Part shown: positions 11,696 to 33,946 of the stretch, piece by piece | How the letters are laid out: every line of letters starts with the position of its first letter | Numbering within the stretch: the stretch's first letter is position 1 | Source: Bacteroidales bacterium | GTDB lineage: Bacteria; Bacteroidota; Bacteroidia; Bacteroidales; UBA10428 | Length of the DNA stretch: 34,008 nucleotides | Direction of reading: 5' to 3' | Assembly: GCA_016926375.1 (NCBI GenBank) | Contig: JAFGOR010000093.1 | Coordinates: 1 to 34,008, forward strand | Translations under genes and position numbers: made by a program | The notes under the pieces: model-generated | What the model was told of the DNA's origin: nothing | Databases searched by the model: none | Seen by the model: the letters and a program-made list of their open reading frames with translations, nothing else

Positions 11696-14362
11696 TCAGT
11701 TGGAAATGAACCCTGAACGGGATTCAATTGGGGATGAAATTGGCTTTATTACATGGTTTCCCGGAAAAAGACAGCGGTTCATGACCGATAAGGCATGTTT
11801 GAAGTCCAGGGGTTTGGAGATGTAATCGTCGCAACCGGCTTCCTGCATCCTTTCCTTGTCACCGGCCATGGCATATGCCGTTTGGGCAATCACGGGAATT
11901 TCCCGGTTCATGTTTTTGATGATCTTTGTTGCCTCATAACCATCCAATACAGGCATCATGATATCCATAACAACCAGGTCAATCTGCTGTGACGACCGGA
12001 TTATATCAAGTGCCTGTTTCCCGTTAGCGGCATGCAGGATTACGGCGTGGGTCTTTTTGAGCAGCTCATGGAGGAATTTGAAACTATTCAGGTCGTCTTC
12101 GGCAATTAAAATGGTTTTGCCTTTCCAGTTGTAATCACCATCTGATGCCTGGATGTATTCCCTGGATTCAGCATGGATTTGGGTTGACTTCAGGTAGGGC
12201 AGGGTAAACAGGAAGGTTGTTCCTGCACCCGGCACGGAGTCAACCCACATGTCACCACCAAGAAGTTGAACCAGGTTCCTGGATATGGCAAGGCCAAGTC
12301 CGGTTCCTGCAATGTTCTTCTCTTCCGAACGTTTGGCCCTCCGGAATCTCTCAAAAATAAGGTTCAATTCTTCACGCGACATTCCCGGGCCGGTATCTTT
12401 AACATAAAACTCAACCAGGGTATCTTCTCTCAGGGTGTATCCAAAGCAAATGGAACCCTTATCGGTAAACTTGATTGCATTGTTGACCAGGTTTATCAAT
12501 ACCTGCCGGAGTCTTAACGGGTCGGTTTTCAGATATACTTTTCCGGCATCCGGATCGGGTTTGTAACTGATTTCCAATTGATGCTTGCCAAATTTCTTCA
12601 GGATTTCCGATGAAGTGGTCAGCAATTCTTCTCCCAGGGAATTCAGGTCACAGTCTTTCTTGACAATTTTTAGTTCCCCTGCCTCAATCTTGGCCATATC
12701 AATGATATCATCAACCAGATTCAGCAATACCTCGCTGCTTGTCCGGATATACCTGGTGAAATCCTTCTTCTGTACTTCCGGAATCTGATCAGAAGCCAGC
12801 AGGTTGGAGAACCCGATTATGGAATTCATCGGAGTTCTGATTTCATGAGACATGTTGGCCAGATAGGATGATTTCAGCTCATCTGAAGTCTTTGCTTTGT
12901 CGGTTTCCTGTTGAAGTGTACGGATGTAGTCGACCCTGTCGGTGATGTCGATTATGATACCCCTTCTGCCGGCCACCCGGTTGTTTCTAATGATGTTGTC
13001 GGTATATACCGAGGCGGGGAACCGGGTTCCGTTTTTACGGATGGCAATGAAATTGGAATTTTCCAATTTCTCATTGCCCAGAATGTCTTCCCGGCTCGAT
13101 TCTGAAATCAGCGTTTCTATCAGGTTCAACCCTTCTGTAAGTGTTTCGGTTGAATAGCCAAAAGCCCTGTACCAGGCTTTGTTAACATACGTGTAATTCC
13201 CATATGAATCGGTTTCAAAAACGCTTTGAGGTAACATGTCAGCCAGTTCGCGATAACGCTGCTGGTTGTCCTCGGCTTTCTGAAGGGCAGTGTCGCGTTG
13301 CTTTTCCCATATTTTTAACTGCGAAAGTAAATTGCGGAATTCACGGTATATCTGTTTTACTTCATAAGCTGAATTCCTTAGGTCAATGGAATGGCTGCTG
13401 TCAAGATGATTCCTGGAAAGTACGGAAATGTAATTGGTGAGCGCTTCCAGATGCGAGGCAATATGGCGCGTGGCTTTGAAACTGAAAAAAACGGCCATGG
13501 CCAGAATAACTAAAACAGCCAGCACATAAAAAACATTCAGCCTGTTGATCAGCGTCTTTTGTGAAAGAACGGATTGTTTTGTCAGATCATTGAAGGAGCT
13601 TTCAATGAGCATGCTGATGCTGTTCAATGAAGCCTTCAGTGCTGCATTACTCCGAATCCCGGCCTGCCTGTCGAGATCAACCAGCCTGAAAAATGCTTCG
13701 GAATAGTTTTCAAGGAGTTTCCCGGAGCGGATTTTATCACCAACCGGTAAGCCCGTGTTTGCTGAGATTGCTTTATGCAGTTCAGGCAGCATTATTTGAA
13801 GCGATGCGGCTGATGTACTCACATCACCGGAGAAATAATCATTTTCAATTTTCTTAAGCCGGTAAATATCACGATTGGTAAAACCGGGCGCACCTTCAAT
13901 CTGATGTCCGTAATCCAACAATTCACCTTCCAACCCTGAGTTGCGGTATCCCCGTTTATAAACCAGATATACCAGGCTGTCAAACAGGTAATTGTATTTG
14001 TTTACACGCTCCGATAACACCTTCAGGCTGTCAGAAATGCCAAAAGCCTGACTTTGTTTCGAGGCTTGAATTTGAGTGAGGGCAGTCATCAGCTCCTGGC
14101 TGGTTTGCAGGTGCTCGGTTAAATAGGGATTGAAACCCCTGATAAAAAAATCTGAATTGGCCTGATCCTGAGCTAAAAAGTCGGTTACCGATCGCGAGTC
14201 TTTAAGAAACTGGATGTAAAGCCGGTTGATTTCATCGGTCACCCGGGTAATTGCCTTTTCCCGGGAATGATGAATTACACTCACAGGAATTATTAAACCG
14301 GCAGTGAGTAGCATAAAGATGAGAAACCAGGATAATAACCTGTACCTAAGAGAATTGAGCAT
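11696..14362 (-). CDS. Hybrid histidine kinase (sensor - PAS - HisKA - HATPase - receiver)
   Basis: This 888-residue inner-membrane signalling protein has TM1 at about 11-30, a mainly helical periplasmic domain of about 240 residues rich in heptad-like spacing (31-273), and TM2 at about 278-296. A linker helix (300-365) and a PAS domain (about 366-480; LPQSVFETDSYGNYTYVNKAW) follow. The H box is NMSHEIRTPMNSIIGF with His506, the N box is LINLVNNAIKF (Asn628), and G1 and G2 are DTGPG (657-661) and GTGLGLAIS (687-695). A C-terminal receiver (about 748-865) has VVMDIMMP with phospho-acceptor Asp800 and Lys850 in YISKPLD. All phosphotransfer residues are present. There is no DNA-binding output and no adjacent response regulator, so an Hpt protein or phosphorelay partner would lie elsewhere. 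The start is ATG. Confidence 0.92.
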   Translation of the reverse strand: MLNSLRYRLLSWFLIFMLLTAGLIIPVSVIHHSREKAITRVTDEINRLYIQFLKDSRSVTDFLAQDQANSDFFIRGFNPYLTEHLQTSQELMTALTQIQASKQSQAFGISDSLKVLSERVNKYNYLFDSLVYLVYKRGYRNSGLEGELLDYGHQIEGAPGFTNRDIYRLKKIENDYFSGDVSTSAASLQIMLPELHKAISANTGLPVGDKIRSGKLLENYSEAFFRLVDLDRQAGIRSNAALKASLNSISMLIESSFNDLTKQSVLSQKTLINRLNVFYVLAVLVILAMAVFFSFKATRHIASHLEALTNYISVLSRNHLDSSHSIDLRNSAYEVKQIYREFRNLLSQLKIWEKQRDTALQKAEDNQQRYRELADMLPQSVFETDSYGNYTYVNKAWYRAFGYSTETLTEGLNLIETLISESSREDILGNEKLENSNFIAIRKNGTRFPASVYTDNIIRNNRVAGRRGIIIDITDRVDYIRTLQQETDKAKTSDELKSSYLANMSHEIRTPMNSIIGFSNLLASDQIPEVQKKDFTRYIRTSSEVLLNLVDDIIDMAKIEAGELKIVKKDCDLNSLGEELLTTSSEILKKFGKHQLEISYKPDPDAGKVYLKTDPLRLRQVLINLVNNAIKFTDKGSICFGYTLREDTLVEFYVKDTGPGMSREELNLIFERFRRAKRSEEKNIAGTGLGLAISRNLVQLLGGDMWVDSVPGAGTTFLFTLPYLKSTQIHAESREYIQASDGDYNWKGKTILIAEDDLNSFKFLHELLKKTHAVILHAANGKQALDIIRSSQQIDLVVMDIMMPVLDGYEATKIIKNMNREIPVIAQTAYAMAGDKERMQEAGCDDYISKPLDFKHALSVMNRCLFPGNHVIKPISSPIESRSGFISN

Positions 14363-14484: not shown

Positions 14485-14514
14485 AAAAAAAAGAGGCGCT
14501 GATTTCAGCGCCTC
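14485..14514 (-). terminator. Intrinsic terminator after the outer-membrane barrel gene
   Basis: A 9-bp GC-rich stem (GAGGCGCTG 14493-14501 with CAGCGCCTC 14506-14514, loop of 4) is followed on the minus strand by eight U residues (A8 at 14485-14492). It starts 12 nt past the stop of the gene at 14526. T4 on the other side gives weak bidirectional potential. Confidence 0.85.
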
Positions 14515-14525
14515 TTTTATGTTCT

Positions 14526-15548
14526 TTAGAACGTCATGGCCAGTCCAATGGTGAAGGGGTGTAAATCGGGCCCCTTATCCGCTACAAACATCGGAGTCAT
14601 GTAGTAATCGGCAAACAGGTAGGCAGTTCCGTAACCCACGCAAGCTGTTACACCCCAACGAAAAGGATTGATGTTGAAATCGTCGTTGTTCTTATCCTTA
14701 TTCTTACCGTTTTCTTCTTTAAAAACCACCTTGGTATGTGAGGCGAGTTTCAGACCTCCAACAATGCCTGCTGAAATGAACACCCTTTTTGCCCTTACCG
14801 TGTTGGGAAACTGCACTTCAAAAAGCAGCGGAACCCTCAAAAACAAAGTTGTCAGCTTGCTCTTGCCAACGTCGCCAAAAAGTGAATCCACCACAACCAT
14901 ATCATCGACCTCAACAATGGAATTGTTCCGGTCAAAGAAGTAATTGTTGTATTCCAATCCCAGTCCGGTTACCAGTCCGGCATGCGTGGTGCCAAACCCC
15001 AGGCTGTATTGGGCAATGTTCAAATCAATGGCCCATGATCTGCCTGTGTTCAGATCCATGAATACATCATCTCCTTCACGCGAAATGGTCATGTCATCGT
15101 CCAGGAAATTATTCAGACCCCAGCCAATACCGGCCCAGTGACCCCGGAATTTTTTGTTGCGTATCTTTTTATCTTCATCCAGTTCATAAATATTGATTTC
15201 CGGGTCCTGGTCTTCATCCCGCTTCACAATCCTGATTTCTTTGTCTCCAACCTTGATGCTTGTGGAATCGCGGTGATCGGCTACTTTAATAACCCCTTTT
15301 TCACCAAGTTTCACTACCGTAGTGTCTCCGTCTTCAATCACCTTAACCACTTCTTTATCCAGCACCCTGATGGTTACTTCTTCTTCATCATCATCAATAA
15401 TCAGCGGTGTGAATCCGTCGTCGTCTTCAATGATCACTTCATCAGGAGTATCTTCCTTTCCCATGATTCGTTTCAGCGAATCGAGTTCCTGGGCGTATAT
15501 ACCAGTTGCAAATGCAAAGAGTACAATTATTGTATACAGTTTTTTCAT
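14526..15548 (-). CDS. Outer-membrane beta-barrel protein with three 19-residue periplasmic repeats
   Basis: This 340-residue protein has a signal peptide cleaved near residue 20 (ATGIYAQ). An acidic segment follows (about 38-56), then three contiguous 19-residue repeats at 57-75, 76-94 and 95-113 with pattern T-x-[IV]-[KR]-[VL]-G-[DE]-K-E-[VI]-x-K-V-x-[DE]-x-x-D. From about residue 135 (KFRGHWAGIGWGLNNF) to the end it has alternating strands and turns ending in FTIGLAMTF, typical of Bacteroidetes PorT/OmpW-like 8-stranded barrels. It has its own ECF-type promoter and a strong terminator, and follows the sigma/anti-sigma pair, so it is the likely output or sensor partner of that system. The role of the repeats is not known. 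Confidence 0.8.
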   Translation of the reverse strand: MKKLYTIIVLFAFATGIYAQELDSLKRIMGKEDTPDEVIIEDDDGFTPLIIDDDEEEVTIRVLDKEVVKVIEDGDTTVVKLGEKGVIKVADHRDSTSIKVGDKEIRIVKRDEDQDPEINIYELDEDKKIRNKKFRGHWAGIGWGLNNFLDDDMTISREGDDVFMDLNTGRSWAIDLNIAQYSLGFGTTHAGLVTGLGLEYNNYFFDRNNSIVEVDDMVVVDSLFGDVGKSKLTTLFLRVPLLFEVQFPNTVRAKRVFISAGIVGGLKLASHTKVVFKEENGKNKDKNNDDFNINPFRWGVTACVGYGTAYLFADYYMTPMFVADKGPDLHPFTIGLAMTF

Positions 15549-15586
15549 AACACAGATAATTTTAAAGTTCTTGATTTTATCAGTCG

Positions 15587-15612
15587 GACGTTTTGAGGAG
15601 GCGGAAAGTTAC
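15587..15612 (-). promoter_or_regulatory. ECF sigma-type promoter of the barrel gene
   Basis: On the minus strand GTAAC (15612-15608), part of CCTGTAACTTT, is followed after 17 nt by CGTC (15590-15587). ECF sigma factors classically use a -35 with an AAC core and a -10 CGTC. The -35 begins 5 nt after the anti-sigma stop. The ATG lies about 38 nt below the -10. The same elements precede the sigma gene. Confidence 0.65.
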
Positions 15613-15617
15613 AGGTG

Positions 15618-16664
15618 TTATTTGATTTTATTGCCGGATATCTTGTAACTGTCCGTATTCAAAAGAATTCCCGATAATCTGCCGTTTTCATCAAGGGTTT
15701 TGTCAATGTCCAGATTGGCCTCGGTGAGGTAATTGAAACCCTGGATGGCTTTTTCGGCAGTTCTCCAGAAATCCACCCTGCTGAACAGGGAGCGCAGCAA
15801 GCTCTCGTTGGTTTCAGATAATTCCGGGTCAACAGTTGCTAAAAACCCCAAATTTTCATCAGATTGAATGACGCCGTTCATCCTTGAGAAGTCCGTGGAG
15901 GAATTAATGGCTGCGGTTAATACTCCTTGTGCGCCAATAGATACAATTGGATTAAGAACCGGATATTCAGTTGCGATTTCCCGCATCTCCGGCAAACCAG
16001 CTTCAGCAGGGGTTGCCTTTATATTGTTTTTAACAGGTTGATGCGTTTGCTGTACTTCCTGTTTTGCATATTCTATGGCAGGGGCAGTATGAACCGGGGT
16101 AATAGCCGGCACACGCACTTTTTCTGCACCCGACTGCGTATAGGTATACGCTGATTCAGCAGGTTTTTTCGAAACCAGCATGAGCAACAGCGCAAAGGAA
16201 GCTGCAATACCCATGGCATAATACAGAAAACGGGGCTTCAGCACAAAGGCAACATGCTTTTTCAGCAGTGCTTTGTCGGCAAAAACCACCGAAGTATCGG
16301 GCTGTAGTTTTATGCGGGTATACAGGTCGTATTCCTTCCTTTTTTCGGGATGCGATGCGATAAAGTCCGAAAGCCTTTTCAGGTCAGCATCACCAAGCAA
16401 TCCCTCGCACGAGGCAATGCAAAATTCATCAAAGTTTACCAGGGTAATTTCGGGCACATCTGCGAAGTCTTTTTTAAGCCGGTTTTTCTGATGGTATTCG
16501 TGGTTTCCGTTAAGGGCAATACGGGTATCATATTCCGGAATGTAACTTTCGTATTCCGGATTTTCAGCCAGAAAAGCCATCAGATCTGCAGTAAGCAACG
16601 GATCCAGGTTGCCTTCCAGGTAATCGAGCAGGTATGCTTCAAAATTGTTCCGGTTGATGGTCAT
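15618..16664 (-). CDS. Membrane anti-sigma factor (predicted)
   Basis: This 348-residue protein is encoded directly after the ECF sigma gene. The cytoplasmic N-terminal part (1-140) contains two similar segments, at about 6-51 and 77-122. Both run NF[DE]-x-[FY]...EG-x-L...F[IL]A-x(2)-P-E...Y-x(2)-Y-x-TRI-x-L, suggesting a duplicated anti-sigma-type helical domain. One transmembrane helix follows (about 146-165, FLYYAMGIAASFALLLMLVS), then a periplasmic part of about 180 residues without a recognised domain. It has no zinc-binding HxxxCxxC motif. The ATG at 16664 is preferred over the longer TTG/ATG-less extension because it lies 10 nt after the sigma stop and follows a CAGGAT sequence. Function is inferred from position and topology, not from a family match. 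Confidence 0.75.
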   Translation of the reverse strand: MTINRNNFEAYLLDYLEGNLDPLLTADLMAFLAENPEYESYIPEYDTRIALNGNHEYHQKNRLKKDFADVPEITLVNFDEFCIASCEGLLGDADLKRLSDFIASHPEKRKEYDLYTRIKLQPDTSVVFADKALLKKHVAFVLKPRFLYYAMGIAASFALLLMLVSKKPAESAYTYTQSGAEKVRVPAITPVHTAPAIEYAKQEVQQTHQPVKNNIKATPAEAGLPEMREIATEYPVLNPIVSIGAQGVLTAAINSSTDFSRMNGVIQSDENLGFLATVDPELSETNESLLRSLFSRVDFWRTAEKAIQGFNYLTEANLDIDKTLDENGRLSGILLNTDSYKISGNKIK

Positions 16665-16674
16665 GATATCCTGT

Positions 16675-17160
16675 TTATAATACTGCTTCAATACTTCCGA
16701 TATAATTCTTCAGGAACATCCTGGCCCTGAATATGTAAACCTTTACTTGCGACTCACTTAGTCCGGTTATTTCTGCAATTTCCTCGTACGAATATCCTTC
16801 ATAATCGCGCAACATAATCACGCTTCGCTGGTCCTCCGGCAACCGGGTTACTGCTTCATCCATGATTTGGGCGAGCCCGTTATAATGATCCGGTGCGGCA
16901 GGCCGATCATGTTTTTCTGCCTCAAAAACAGTAAGTTTTTTTTCTTTCCTGATCAGGTCAATCATGGTATGGTAGGCAGTAGTGAATAAATACGATCGTA
17001 CCTTTTCGGCGGACACTTCATTTACTTTTACCCACAATTTCTCATAGGTATCCTGAACGATGTCCCGTGCCTTATCCTCGTGTTTCAGATTTTTGAGAAT
17101 AAAGCGGTAAATCCCGTCGGAGTGCTCATCTACACTTTTATTGTATTCGGCAAGGGTCAT
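16675..17160 (-). CDS. ECF-type RNA polymerase sigma factor
   Basis: This 161-residue sigma-70 family protein has only regions 2 and 4. Region 2 is GIYRFILKNLKHEDKARDIV followed by QDTYEKLW (about 16-43) with the DNA-melting segment VRSYLFTTAYHTMIDLIRK (about 54-72). Region 4 is RLPEDQRSVIMLRDYEGYSY then EEIAEITGLSESQVKVYIFRAR (about 106-147), a standard helix-turn-helix. Extracytoplasmic-function sigma factors redirect RNA polymerase after release from a membrane anti-sigma factor. The gene for that factor follows after 10 nt. A GTAAC-N16-CGTC promoter lies 25-49 nt upstream, so autoregulation is likely. The start is ATG. Confidence 0.93.
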   Translation of the reverse strand: MTLAEYNKSVDEHSDGIYRFILKNLKHEDKARDIVQDTYEKLWVKVNEVSAEKVRSYLFTTAYHTMIDLIRKEKKLTVFEAEKHDRPAAPDHYNGLAQIMDEAVTRLPEDQRSVIMLRDYEGYSYEEIAEITGLSESQVKVYIFRARMFLKNYIGSIEAVL

Positions 17161-17184
17161 TTTATGATCCGGATTCGAGGGTAT

Positions 17185-17209
17185 GACGATTGAAGCGACG
17201 TAAAGTTAC
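17185..17209 (-). promoter_or_regulatory. ECF sigma-type promoter of the sigma gene (autoregulation)
   Basis: On the minus strand GTAAC (17209-17205) within CCTGTAACTTT is followed after 16 nt by CGTC (17188-17185), 24 nt before the ATG. The 11-base CCTGTAACTTT is identical in the promoter of the barrel gene at 14526. The -35 starts 7 nt downstream of the stop of the porin-like gene at 17217. Confidence 0.65.
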
Positions 17210-17216
17210 AGGAAAG

Positions 17217-18365
17217 TCAAAAATTATATTTCAGTCTCAGAAATACCATGTTGATCCTGGTTGTTATGCCGGACACGGTGCTGTTGAAATGCTGCCATAA
17301 CAGGGTAAAGTCCACATTTTCTGCCAGTGAATAATCCAGTGAAGGCCCGGCAAAATATCCTTCGAGGTCGGGCAACCACATGGCTGAAACAGTGGTATTC
17401 AGCAGGGGAGTAATGGCCCATGTGAACTGCCCGAAAGCCGAAAACTCCGAAAAGGCCAGGTCTTTACCAGAAAGTCTTCCCGAGTAAAGGCTGTTGAAAT
17501 CGGTCAAATCAAGTGGGTTATTGCAATACATGAATTGCAGCTGAACGGAGGAGTTGTCTTCAAAAACCCGGTCAAAGCCGGTTGTTGCAATCAGCGAGTT
17601 TTTACCTGAATGTGAATTCGCATCATGGTGAAACCAGGAGGCCTCACCCCTGAAAGACAGGTTCTTTATTGAACCCGACCATCCGGTGCCCACAACCAGG
17701 TCTTCACTGTTTACAATTCCTGCCAGGAATTGAATATCATAGCTCCATTTATTGAATCGGTATAAACCGGCTGCTGTAACATCATTATTCCTGTCGGCCT
17801 TTACTGCCAACTCCAGGGCGGAGGATGATGCCGGAAAATACTGTAATCTCACGGCATCACTGCCGGGCCGTTCCACGTAATCGAAATCAAAAAATGAATA
17901 GGCATTGAACAAATCGTTCGGGTTCCAAACGAAGGTTTGTCCCCAGTTAATACGCTGTCTTCCTGCAGTGACCTGGAATCTGCCCAGCTGAAAATCAAGC
18001 CAGAGTCTGTCAATAGTAGTGTTCAGAAGCAATGATTTTTTTTCAAGCACATTCCATGACATATCAGCAAATCCGTTGTCGGCTCCGATCAAATCACTGT
18101 AAATATTACCCATACGCACCCTGTCGCCGGTGAAAAGCCTGTTGCGGACTTCTGCTGCAAAAGTGATGTTGTCGCTAATGAATCCCTTGAAATTTAATCT
18201 GTTGTGTAGCATGTTTTCGTTCAGAAATGATCCCGACAGGGAGTCGAACAGGGAACTTTGCAGGGTGGTCAGGTAGCCGCTCAGGCTGTACGGCTTGTTT
18301 TTCTGCGGAAAAAGCATTCCGGCATTAAACAGCAACAGCAGCAACAGCAGCGGATATTTTTTCAT
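17217..18365 (-). CDS. Porin-like outer-membrane beta-barrel protein of an ABC export cassette
   Basis: This 382-residue protein has a Leu-rich signal peptide (1-21, cleavage near LFPQ) and alternating amphipathic strands throughout. It ends in LRLKYNF, whose terminal aromatic residue is the usual outer-membrane assembly signal. The motif GRQRINWG (135-142) with NPNDLFN (148-154) recalls DUF1302-type barrels, but the match is partial. It is the last gene of a five-gene run with an ABC ATPase, two permeases and a LolA-like protein, with a 12-nt gap to the ATPase, so it may be the outer-membrane component of that system. A GTG at 18368 precedes the ATG at 18365; the ATG is chosen. Confidence 0.75.
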   Translation of the reverse strand: MKKYPLLLLLLLFNAGMLFPQKNKPYSLSGYLTTLQSSLFDSLSGSFLNENMLHNRLNFKGFISDNITFAAEVRNRLFTGDRVRMGNIYSDLIGADNGFADMSWNVLEKKSLLLNTTIDRLWLDFQLGRFQVTAGRQRINWGQTFVWNPNDLFNAYSFFDFDYVERPGSDAVRLQYFPASSSALELAVKADRNNDVTAAGLYRFNKWSYDIQFLAGIVNSEDLVVGTGWSGSIKNLSFRGEASWFHHDANSHSGKNSLIATTGFDRVFEDNSSVQLQFMYCNNPLDLTDFNSLYSGRLSGKDLAFSEFSAFGQFTWAITPLLNTTVSAMWLPDLEGYFAGPSLDYSLAENVDFTLLWQHFNSTVSGITTRINMVFLRLKYNF

Positions 18366-18377
18366 CACGATAACAGG

Positions 18378-19073
18378 TTATGCCGGCATCCCCTTGATAT
18401 CATCCGAAATCACCTTTCCGTCTTCGAGTGTGATCACCCGGTGGGCCATTTTAACCACGCGCGGATCATGAGTAGAGAAAATGAAGGTGATTTTCGATTC
18501 GTGGTTCAGTTTTTCCATTATCTCCAGCAGGGTAGTGGCCGATTTCGAGTCGAGGTTGGCAGTGGGTTCATCCGCCAACACAAACTTGGGTCTCGATGCC
18601 AGCGCCCTGGCTACTGCAACTCTTTGCTGCTGTCCACCCGACAGCTTGCCGGGCCGGCTGTTGATCCGATCGCCCAGCCCCACGGCATTTAACAATTCCA
18701 GCGTGCGTTCATTTTTTTCTTTCTCCGGCCATTTCTGCAGGTTCATAATGAATTCCACATTCTCTTTTGCAGTGAGCACCGGGATGAGGTTATACGACTG
18801 AAACACAAAGCCAATATGATGAAGCCGGAAATCAATCAGTTGTGACGACCTGAGCGCAGAAAGGTTGGTGCCGCCAATGATGATATCACCCGAGGTAGGC
18901 TGATCAAGACCCCCAATCATGTTCAGCAGTGTGGTTTTGCCTGATCCCGACGGGCCTACAATGGCTGCAAATTCAGCTTCTGTAAAATCCAGCGTTACAT
19001 CATTTACTGCATGCACCTTCACTTCAGACGAATTGTATATTTTGTTCACGTTTTTTAATTCAATTACTTTCAT
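18378..19073 (-). CDS. ABC transporter ATP-binding protein (LolD/MacB family)
   Basis: This 231-residue ATPase belongs to the LolD/MacB/FtsE type that drives mechanotransmission permeases rather than ordinary substrate channels. Walker A is GPSGSGKT (40-47), the Q-loop lies in FVFQSYNLIPVL (89-100), the signature is LSGGQQQRVAVARAL (144-158), and Walker B is VLADEPTANLD (165-175) with the H-loop in STHDPR (His202). All catalytic residues are present. It follows two FtsX-type permease genes by 23 nt and precedes the barrel gene by 12 nt. It is cytosolic, bound to the permeases. Sequence alone does not separate LolD from MacB-type function; the LolA-like gene at the head of the cassette favours lipid or lipoprotein handling. 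Confidence 0.93.
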   Translation of the reverse strand: MKVIELKNVNKIYNSSEVKVHAVNDVTLDFTEAEFAAIVGPSGSGKTTLLNMIGGLDQPTSGDIIIGGTNLSALRSSQLIDFRLHHIGFVFQSYNLIPVLTAKENVEFIMNLQKWPEKEKNERTLELLNAVGLGDRINSRPGKLSGGQQQRVAVARALASRPKFVLADEPTANLDSKSATTLLEIMEKLNHESKITFIFSTHDPRVVKMAHRVITLEDGKVISDDIKGMPA

Positions 19074-19096
19074 GGGTTGTCTGGTTAAAAGTTGAG

Positions 19097-20518
19097 CTAT
19101 TCAGTTCTGAGTGCTTCTACCGGTATTAATTTCAAAGCTTTGCGGGCCGGCCACACCGAGGCAACAAGAGCGGTGAATATGACCATCAGGGTGGTAAAAA
19201 AAATGAACCCGGGTTTTACCACAGGATAAACCCGGGCCGCAAAACCAATGGCTTCAAATCCTTCACCCCAGCCCGAAAAGTGAATTCCGGTTTTTCCAAG
19301 TGCCAGTGCAATCGCCCATCCCAAAAGCATACCTGCCAGGGCTCCGGCAAAGGTCAGAAAAATGGTTTCGAGCATGATCATCGAAAAAATTCTTCTGTGG
19401 TTCATGCCAATGGCCATCAGCATGCCCAGCTCTTTGGTTCTTTCCAAAACAGCCATCATCATCGTATTGATAATGCCAAAAGCCAGTGCAAGCATAATAA
19501 TTCCAACGAAGACAAAGTAGTAAAGAAATATGAAATCATGCAGCATGGCTGCATCCGGAGCTAATTCCCTCCAGGTTCTGACGGCATTCCCTTTGAAATT
19601 CCCGTCCAGTTTTTCCTTAACAGTATGGGCATCATCAATACTGTTGCATAAAATGGCGATTTCATGTGTAAGCACTTCATTACCGCCATAAAGATCAGCC
19701 AGTTCCCGGGCATTTACAAATACAGATGCCTGGTCGAAACCGGCATTGGTTGTTTTATAAATGCCGCATACGCGGAATATTCCCTGAACCGGGTTTCCCC
19801 TGACATCGGAGAGGGTGATTTGAATTTTGTTTCTGATCCGGTAATCCAGTGCCTGCCCGGTGATCAGCAGCCCGTATTTGTTCAGTTCCCGGGTGCCAAG
19901 CTCTTTTTTTAAAGCTTCGGTGAATTCCTTGTACGACTTAAAACGTATATTTCTTAAGGGTTCCAGGTGCAAAACAACAGGCTCCGGGATTACCCCGGCC
20001 AGTTTTACAAGCACCGTGTCTGTGAGGTTATACTGTTTCAGCTTCAGCAAATCGGCAACTTTATCACCAATCAGAATGCCTCCGCGATGCGCGCTATCGA
20101 GATAATCACCGCCACCGGGAACAATTTTCCTGCATATCTCTGTGATTTTTTTTTCTTTTTCGGGATCAATGCCATAAACAACAACACCGGCGTTTGCCCA
20201 GGGAGTGCCGGCCATAGCTACCAGCTTTGTTCTCTGAACCCATCCTGATATTTCCCTGAGTGAATCGAGGCTTTGAATTACCTGGCCTGTCTGATCCACG
20301 GTTAGTCCAATTTCTTCGTTGCGCAGGTATTCGTTGTTATGAATCTGAACATGTGAAACCTCATTGTAAATGGCATCATGAAGCCGTTGTGTGGTCCAGC
20401 CTTCCATGATTCCCACAAGCAATACCCCTGCAATAATGCCAATTGTAACAGCAATGATTACTACCAGGCTTCTTTTCTTGTTACGCCATACGTTTTTCCA
20501 GGCAATTGACCAAATCAT
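19097..20518 (-). CDS. FtsX/MacB-type ABC permease, second of a pair
   Basis: This 473-residue inner-membrane permease has an N-terminal basic IAWKNVWRNKKRS segment, TM1 (about 16-37), a large periplasmic MacB-PCD-like domain (about 40-325), then three helices: about 330-355 (FLYYFVFVGIIMLALAFGII), 380-410 and 430-460. The cytosolic ERTKELGMLMAIGMNHRRI segment (about 362-380) is the coupling region conserved in FtsX-family permeases. It has the same length as the gene upstream (473 residues) and the same plan, so the two are probably paralogues forming a heterodimer, like LolC/LolE. Gaps are 12 nt to the previous and 23 nt to the next gene. Confidence 0.9.
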   Translation of the reverse strand: MIWSIAWKNVWRNKKRSLVVIIAVTIGIIAGVLLVGIMEGWTTQRLHDAIYNEVSHVQIHNNEYLRNEEIGLTVDQTGQVIQSLDSLREISGWVQRTKLVAMAGTPWANAGVVVYGIDPEKEKKITEICRKIVPGGGDYLDSAHRGGILIGDKVADLLKLKQYNLTDTVLVKLAGVIPEPVVLHLEPLRNIRFKSYKEFTEALKKELGTRELNKYGLLITGQALDYRIRNKIQITLSDVRGNPVQGIFRVCGIYKTTNAGFDQASVFVNARELADLYGGNEVLTHEIAILCNSIDDAHTVKEKLDGNFKGNAVRTWRELAPDAAMLHDFIFLYYFVFVGIIMLALAFGIINTMMMAVLERTKELGMLMAIGMNHRRIFSMIMLETIFLTFAGALAGMLLGWAIALALGKTGIHFSGWGEGFEAIGFAARVYPVVKPGFIFFTTLMVIFTALVASVWPARKALKLIPVEALRTE

Positions 20519-33714: not shown

Positions 33715-33946
33715 CATAGCCGTCAAGCTAAGGATGTATTGTGTAGATATGCTTTCATTTGCACATTTTGATGCCAATATTATAGCAGTTGAGGCTGAAC
33801 ATAGTGCTATCCCCTGCCTACCGCCTGCCTACCGCCTGCCTGCCCTGCCTACCGGCAGGCAGGCGGTAGGCAGGGCAAGCAGGCCCGCTGCGCCTTCGCG
33901 TAGCCGCTTCGGCAGAGCAAGGCCAGCGGCATAGCCGTCAAGCTAA
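33715..33946. repeat. 17-bp direct repeats 215 bp apart
   Basis: CATAGCCGTCAAGCTAA is present exactly at 33715-33731 and at 33930-33946. The pair brackets the 21-base inverted repeat and adjoins a small hairpin on the left. No transposase is encoded between them. Confidence 0.8.
33824..33874. repeat. 21-bp perfect inverted repeat of GCCTGCC/GGCAGGC units
   Basis: The left arm 33824-33844 is the exact reverse complement of the right arm 33854-33874, with a 9-base loop. The arms are built from CCTGCC and CTACCG units. A second pairing (TGCCCTGCCTACCG 33841-33854 with CGGTAGGCAGGGCA 33864-33877) competes with it. Confidence 0.85.

Follow-up and report, generated by a model that had tools for sequence, protein, structure and literature searches.

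The outer-membrane barrel encoded at positions 14526-15548 of the window (the whole 34,008-nucleotide stretch of Bacteroidales DNA analysed here) is probably the outer-membrane member of a three-gene ECF circuit, in which the C-terminus of a membrane anti-sigma factor would meet the barrel and the logic of the Dma anti-sigma factors would be distributed over two genes. Barrel genes of this large Bacteroidia family lie behind the genes of a sigma factor and its membrane anti-sigma factor and are apparently activated by the former, in a circuit that is conserved across Bacteroidia and seems self-regulated. Judged by gene neighborhoods and promoters, the barrel is tied to its ECF pair more strongly than the initial annotation of this DNA could see. 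This place in a conserved ECF circuit resembling a divided Dma system is a more interesting result than the 19-residue repeats of the barrel protein, which by themselves are of minor interest. All genes and features of the trio described below lie on the minus strand.

The barrel gene encodes a protein of 340 residues. Its open reading frame was confirmed, and the layout given in the initial annotation, an acidic stretch followed by a repeat segment and then a barrel, was borne out: a signal peptide (residues 1-20, MKKLYTIIVLFAFATGIYAQ, 15489-15548, recognized by inspection) is followed by the acidic stretch, a 57-residue repeat segment, and a barrel matching Pfam family PF13568 (OMP_b-brl_2; residues 187-316, 9e-9, 36 bits against a gathering cut-off of 27). 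AlphaFold2 placed eight strands from residue 137 on (barrel domain at residues 137-340, 14529-15140) with low confidence (four sequences, mean pLDDT 51), and Foldseek matched the model to OmpA, Ail, and OmpX. Because of the OmpA-type topology, the N-terminal segment of the protein should be periplasmic. The first alignment for the genome scan was too diverse, and the narrower one that was used instead gave only three same-genus loci, which restricted the structure predictions to four sequences; the models of both the barrel and the anti-sigma factor are of low confidence. A hairpin just 3′ of the barrel gene (14489-14518, listed on the plus strand) has a run of T behind it on the minus strand, as read from the sequence, and the operon ends, by this pattern, at the terminator-like hairpin. 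Beyond it lies a gene for a hybrid histidine kinase/response regulator (11696-14362), which likewise follows the barrel gene in the relatives L031-L033, L035, and L038. Elsewhere in the window, short GC-rich direct and inverted repeats (CCTGCCTACCG and CGGCAGGCAGG) are found at 33813-33884, near the contig end.

Directly upstream of the barrel gene are the genes of a sigma factor and a membrane protein with one helix. The ECF sigma factor (16675-17160, 161 aa) carries the Pfam domains Sigma70_r2 and r4_2, and its best NCBIfam match, NF058625 (PG0214/GFO_1088), scored 117.8 bits, which is below the curated cut-off of 130. The membrane protein (15618-16664, 348 aa) matched no Pfam family, and we consider it a putative anti-sigma factor on the basis of its position, its single transmembrane helix, and its membership in a conserved family. 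It has, in its cytoplasmic part, a helical domain at residues 8-41 (16542-16643) and an internal duplicate of this domain at residues 78-117 (16314-16433; hhalign 1.4e-13), a predicted transmembrane helix at residues 144-165 (16170-16235), and, after about 115 predicted disordered residues, a conserved C-terminus of helices and then a beta hairpin (residues 280-337, 15654-15827). The arrangement of a membrane helix, a low-complexity disordered tether of 100-150 residues, and a conserved C-terminus is a predicted topology that is as expected for a protein spanning the periplasm. Upstream of the sigma gene, on the same strand, positions 17217-20518 encode an outer-membrane-porin-like protein together with the ATPase and permease of an ABC type, and these genes precede the sigma gene in L033 and L036 as well.

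The order sigma, anti-sigma, barrel is repeated in relatives. A search of 60 relatives turned up barrel homologues in 42, and among 130 barrel loci drawn from high-scoring matches across many families, 98 had this order with sigma factors of two unlike types (an automatic call for a sigma gene at most 2.5 kb upstream with a gene between); since the loci come from high-scoring matches, the proportion cannot be taken as an unbiased rate, and in a few of them (such as L067, L069, L202, L249, and L250) the gene in between is short and doubtful. In a 198-genome sample of the phylum, the coordinates place the barrel directly after the anti-sigma gene in nine of the ten class members, the window genome among them, that possess the anti-sigma family. 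The window genome has 12 other PF13568 barrels, only one of which has a sigma gene within 1.5 kb, and this one belongs to a Dma-like locus. The two sigma types beside the barrel family are the 161-aa type of the window and a type of 186-197 aa accompanied by a short anti-sigma protein with a transmembrane segment near residue 45; the barrels of both belong to the same family (hhalign 5e-39). The barrel profile matched at E <= 1e-15 in 244 of 296 sampled genomes, although some of these matches are perhaps other PF13568 barrels.

The promoters link the barrel further to the pair. An ECF-type promoter motif precedes the barrel gene (TGTAACTTT-N14-CGTCCGA, 15584-15613) as well as the sigma gene (TGTAACTTT-N13-CGTCATA, 17182-17210), and comparison of the upstream sequences of 13 sigma and 9 barrel genes showed a shared motif, GTAACTTT-N13/14-CGTC, with small variations. 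When the looser motif GTAAC-N14-20-CGT[CA] was scored in the 150 bp upstream of each gene, loci with the 161-aa sigma type had it before the sigma gene (60/69) and the barrel gene (45/69) and never before the anti-sigma gene (0/69), and the reversed control gave none; in the group with other sigma types it was found before 0 of 29 sigma genes, 1 of 29 barrel genes, and 0 of 29 anti-sigma genes. It also precedes 17 of 32 barrels that have no adjacent pair, again with a control of zero, and in one genome (G029), where the pair and the barrel are 15 kb apart on one contig, both carry the motif. Because the barrel has its own ECF-type promoter, it looks co-regulated with the anti-sigma gene, as the initial annotation had supposed.

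For the genome-wide regulon, the shortened pattern TGTAACN{15,19}CGTC was discarded: its control matches outnumbered the motif matches, and given this lack of specificity the extended motif alone was used. In the window genome, this strict motif has exactly two sites, those of the barrel promoter (matched at 15584-15612) and the sigma promoter (17182-17209); in other genomes there are zero to four. Sites away from the trio precede, by gene names given by eye, ABC permeases (L313, L317, and L335), a toast-rack-like protein (L303), SppA (L320), a 71-aa membrane protein (L310 and L334), and outer-membrane proteins (L329 and L331), and some of them may be chance matches because the reversed control gives a similar number per genome. 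The permease genes behind this motif, in three genomes, are of the MacB/FtsX-like kind, which hints at an envelope role of the regulon.

We suggest that the 161-aa sigma factor would recognize TGTAAC-N16/17-CGTC and switch on its own gene, the anti-sigma gene, and the barrel gene. The two helical domains of the anti-sigma factor would hold the sigma factor at the inner membrane, the disordered tether of 100-150 residues would extend the conserved C-terminus in the direction of the outer membrane to meet the barrel there, and newly made barrel would close a feedback loop. The recognition of the motif and the anti-sigma activity are deduced from position and conservation, and the feedback and the contact between barrel and anti-sigma factor are proposed. 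Alternatively, the barrel might be a mere output of the sigma regulon, a non-sensing, envelope-protective protein of the OmpX or OmpW kind, with the anti-sigma factor sensing something else. That the barrel has a sigma-type promoter of its own, also when it is unlinked from the pair, is consistent with such a role, as is the fact that relatives carry the motif at further sites in front of envelope genes (such as the ABC permeases, toast-rack-like protein, SppA, and other outer-membrane proteins). However, the barrel family stands behind two unlike sigma/anti-sigma types, one of them with an anti-sigma domain that is also found in Dma, whose barrel is fused to the anti-sigma factor, and the strict motif has no further site in the window genome. 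We regard a pure output function as rather unlikely and favor a barrel that takes part in the circuit.

The initial annotation had described three exact 19-residue repeats in the barrel protein. Their spacing is indeed exact, and residues 57-75 (EVTIRVLDKEVVKVIEDGD, 15324-15380), 76-94 (TTVVKLGEKGVIKVADHRD, 15267-15323), and 95-113 (STSIKVGDKEIRIVKRDED, 15210-15266) align without gaps, but the copies are degenerate, with pairwise identities of only 5, 8, and 6 of 19 positions (11/19 positives for each pair), and copy 1 is weak. The offset-19 self-score of residues 57-113 was above those of all 5,000 composition-preserving shuffles (P about 2e-4, for a region picked post hoc), and when all offsets 8-31 were compared in the linkers of four homologues from the same genus, 19 again came out best (P 0.001-0.03). 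With the profile of the relatives, for which the 1% threshold is 7.5 bits, copy 2 scored 16 bits and copy 3 scored 37, and copy 1 remained below threshold at 5.3 bits. Among four same-genus proteins, 3, 5, and 12 of the 19 positions are invariant in copies 1, 2, and 3, respectively, and copy 3 comes closest to the unit seen across the family. At the DNA level, no tandem repeat can be seen, and no Pfam or NCBIfam domain in the repeat region was above cut-off. In the AlphaFold2 models from four sequences, short hairpins appear at residues 70-79 and 95-106 with pLDDT <50.

Across the aligned homologues, the corresponding unit reads D[ST]T-x-[IV]-x-[LV]-G-x-K-x-[IV]-x-[IV], with constraint on the D-T, the G, and the beta-branched positions, and it usually occurs singly, just before the barrel. 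A profile built from 16 family units detected at least one unit in 63 of 121 proteins and two or more in 10, and doublings with a spacing of 17 or 19 occur in other lineages (L035, L041, and L059). Relative to the aligned family, the extra copies of the window protein are an insertion; on this comparison, its repeats have arisen by a multiplication, specific to the lineage, of a single linker unit that many members of the family, about half of them, possess. The repeat is found in other proteins, and its carriers usually lie next to an ECF pair (a sigma gene stands beside 46 of them); neither of the two findings that the initial annotation named as refuting its reading, a repeat confined to this protein or carriers that are never near an ECF pair, was observed. 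In other relatives, the linker position is occupied by a coiled coil, by a GIN domain (PF10988) that stands alone or together with units, or, in the same-genus relative L034, by nothing. The GIN domain (PF10988, DUF2807) is fused ahead of the same barrel in L053, L055, L059, and others, and open reading frames of 450-540 aa were frequent in the class survey. In the flavobacteria-like families L155-L163, a conserved coiled coil (approximately ...EEKEALKxEVExINxxLExxxITxEEAxxLKxxAAExRALNIENRxAI...) forms the barrel linker, and the anti-sigma factor has an all-helical C-terminus.

It had also been proposed that the repeats themselves contact the periplasmic part of the anti-sigma factor and make the barrel a sensor. 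Both the unit and the anti-sigma C-terminus look strand-turn-strand, and the unit is common in these barrels (63/121). However, among barrels paired with one type of anti-sigma factor it is present in 0 to 3 copies; L034 has no unit and yet keeps the sigma gene, the anti-sigma gene, and the promoter; relatives replace the unit by a coiled coil or GIN domain; and the first two copies show only weak conservation even inside the genus. The unit was not associated with an adjacent sigma gene (46 of 91 proteins with a sigma gene, 17 of 30 without one; Fisher p 0.67), and over 92 pairs the barrel linker and the anti-sigma C-terminus showed no correlation in helix or strand character (rho 0.02, p 0.83, on a crude propensity scale and with phylogenetically non-independent pairs). 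A covariation of linker type with C-terminus type, noticed by eye as helical with helical in flavobacteria-like families, accordingly failed over the 92 pairs, and L060 is a clear exception to it. As the unit is not tied to a neighboring sigma gene, nor the linker type to the C-terminus, a contact through the repeats is unsupported, and we consider it improbable. Still less probable is the suggestion that the repeats serve to bind a ligand or a metal, for which no evidence was found: the region is acidic, but beyond scattered D/E it has no conserved set of metal ligands, the constraint falls on the D-T, G, and beta-branched positions, and domain searches of Pfam and NCBIfam returned nothing above cut-off. 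Most likely, the 19-residue units are short beta hairpins that serve as a spacer or stalk between membrane and periplasm and not as the decisive contact.

The closest known system is Dma, a single chain that runs from an anti-sigma domain through a membrane helix and a disordered tether to a C-terminal barrel and that is encoded beside the gene of an ECF21 sigma factor (PMC13088901). The window trio has the same elements, namely, a putative anti-sigma domain, one membrane helix, a long disordered tether, a PF13568-type barrel, and a neighboring ECF sigma factor. In contrast to Dma, its anti-sigma factor (15618-16664) and barrel (14526-15548) are two open reading frames, the barrel has its own sigma-type promoter, and the sigma factor and anti-sigma domain are of another type. 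The window genome also encodes a separate, one-gene Dma-like protein of 487 aa (L102:3319-4782), with an N-terminal anti-sigma domain, a transmembrane segment, a linker, and a PF13568 barrel; its gene directly follows an ECF sigma gene (locus L102:2758-4782, G000:C67), and homologues of it are present in 33 of 60 relatives. The N-terminus of this protein is shared by the short anti-sigma proteins of the 186-197-aa sigma type (hhalign 5e-18), which belong to related two-gene systems of other Bacteroidia, whereas hhalign aligned only the transmembrane helix between it and the window anti-sigma factor, with no detectable similarity of the N-termini. The window sigma factor, of the 161-aa type, is 23% identical to the sigma factor beside the Dma-like protein, and the two barrels, both of PF13568, are distant (hhalign probability of 89%, over the last 98 columns only). 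Because the anti-sigma factor and barrel of the trio are separate polypeptides and no homology of its anti-sigma domain to that of Dma was detected, we regard it as a variant and not as a member of Dma; the comparison suggests a two-gene counterpart of the recently described Dma anti-sigma factors that span both membranes.

In having a barrel with an N-terminal periplasmic extension, an inner-membrane anti-sigma factor, and an ECF sigma factor, the trio also resembles the TonB-dependent signaling system FecA/FecR/FecI. Unlike FecA, the window barrel is predicted to be eight-stranded, has no plug or signaling domain (no such Pfam domain is present), and is under its own sigma-type promoter. PorT belongs to the PF13568 barrel family; compared with PorT and other PF13568 barrels, the window subfamily is marked by its periplasmic linker and its ECF setting. 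The nearest family to the window sigma factor, although below the cut-off, is that of PG0214 (NF058625). PG_0214 and PG_0215, a sigma factor and a putative anti-sigma factor, rise together in a mutant study of P. gingivalis (PMC10101095), and the genes listed after them encode a DUF4252 protein (PG_0216) and hypothetical proteins.

The proposed circuit of sigma factor, tethered anti-sigma factor, and barrel is supported by the gene order, the shared motif, its restriction to two strict sites in the window genome, the unlinked barrels that keep the motif, the pairing of the barrel family with a second sigma/anti-sigma type whose anti-sigma N-terminus is Dma-like, and the architecture of the anti-sigma factor; against it we count the negative test of linker against C-terminus, the low confidence of the structure models, the distance of the Dma barrel, and the absence of similarity between the N-terminus of the window anti-sigma factor and Dma. 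A partial literature search, which extended to papers on a GIN domain or a "PorT family protein" with a sigma and anti-sigma factor, found none on this sigma/anti-sigma/barrel trio; because the search was partial, this is weak evidence of novelty. It is quite possible, and we advance it tentatively, that the trio represents a widespread and undescribed three-gene envelope-sensing module of Bacteroidia, independent of TonB, in which the tethered anti-sigma factor reads the barrel and the barrel is the main target of the sigma factor, and which would be a counterpart, perhaps a forerunner, of Dma.

Since the barrel and the anti-sigma factor are separate genes, the proposed periplasmic contact can be tested partner by partner, by deleting or trimming each, which is harder in the fused Dma proteins, and the promoter motif provides a ready reporter. 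If the barrel and the tethered anti-sigma factor do touch, most Bacteroidia would carry a form of signaling from the outer membrane to the cytoplasm beyond TonB receptors and the one-gene Dma.
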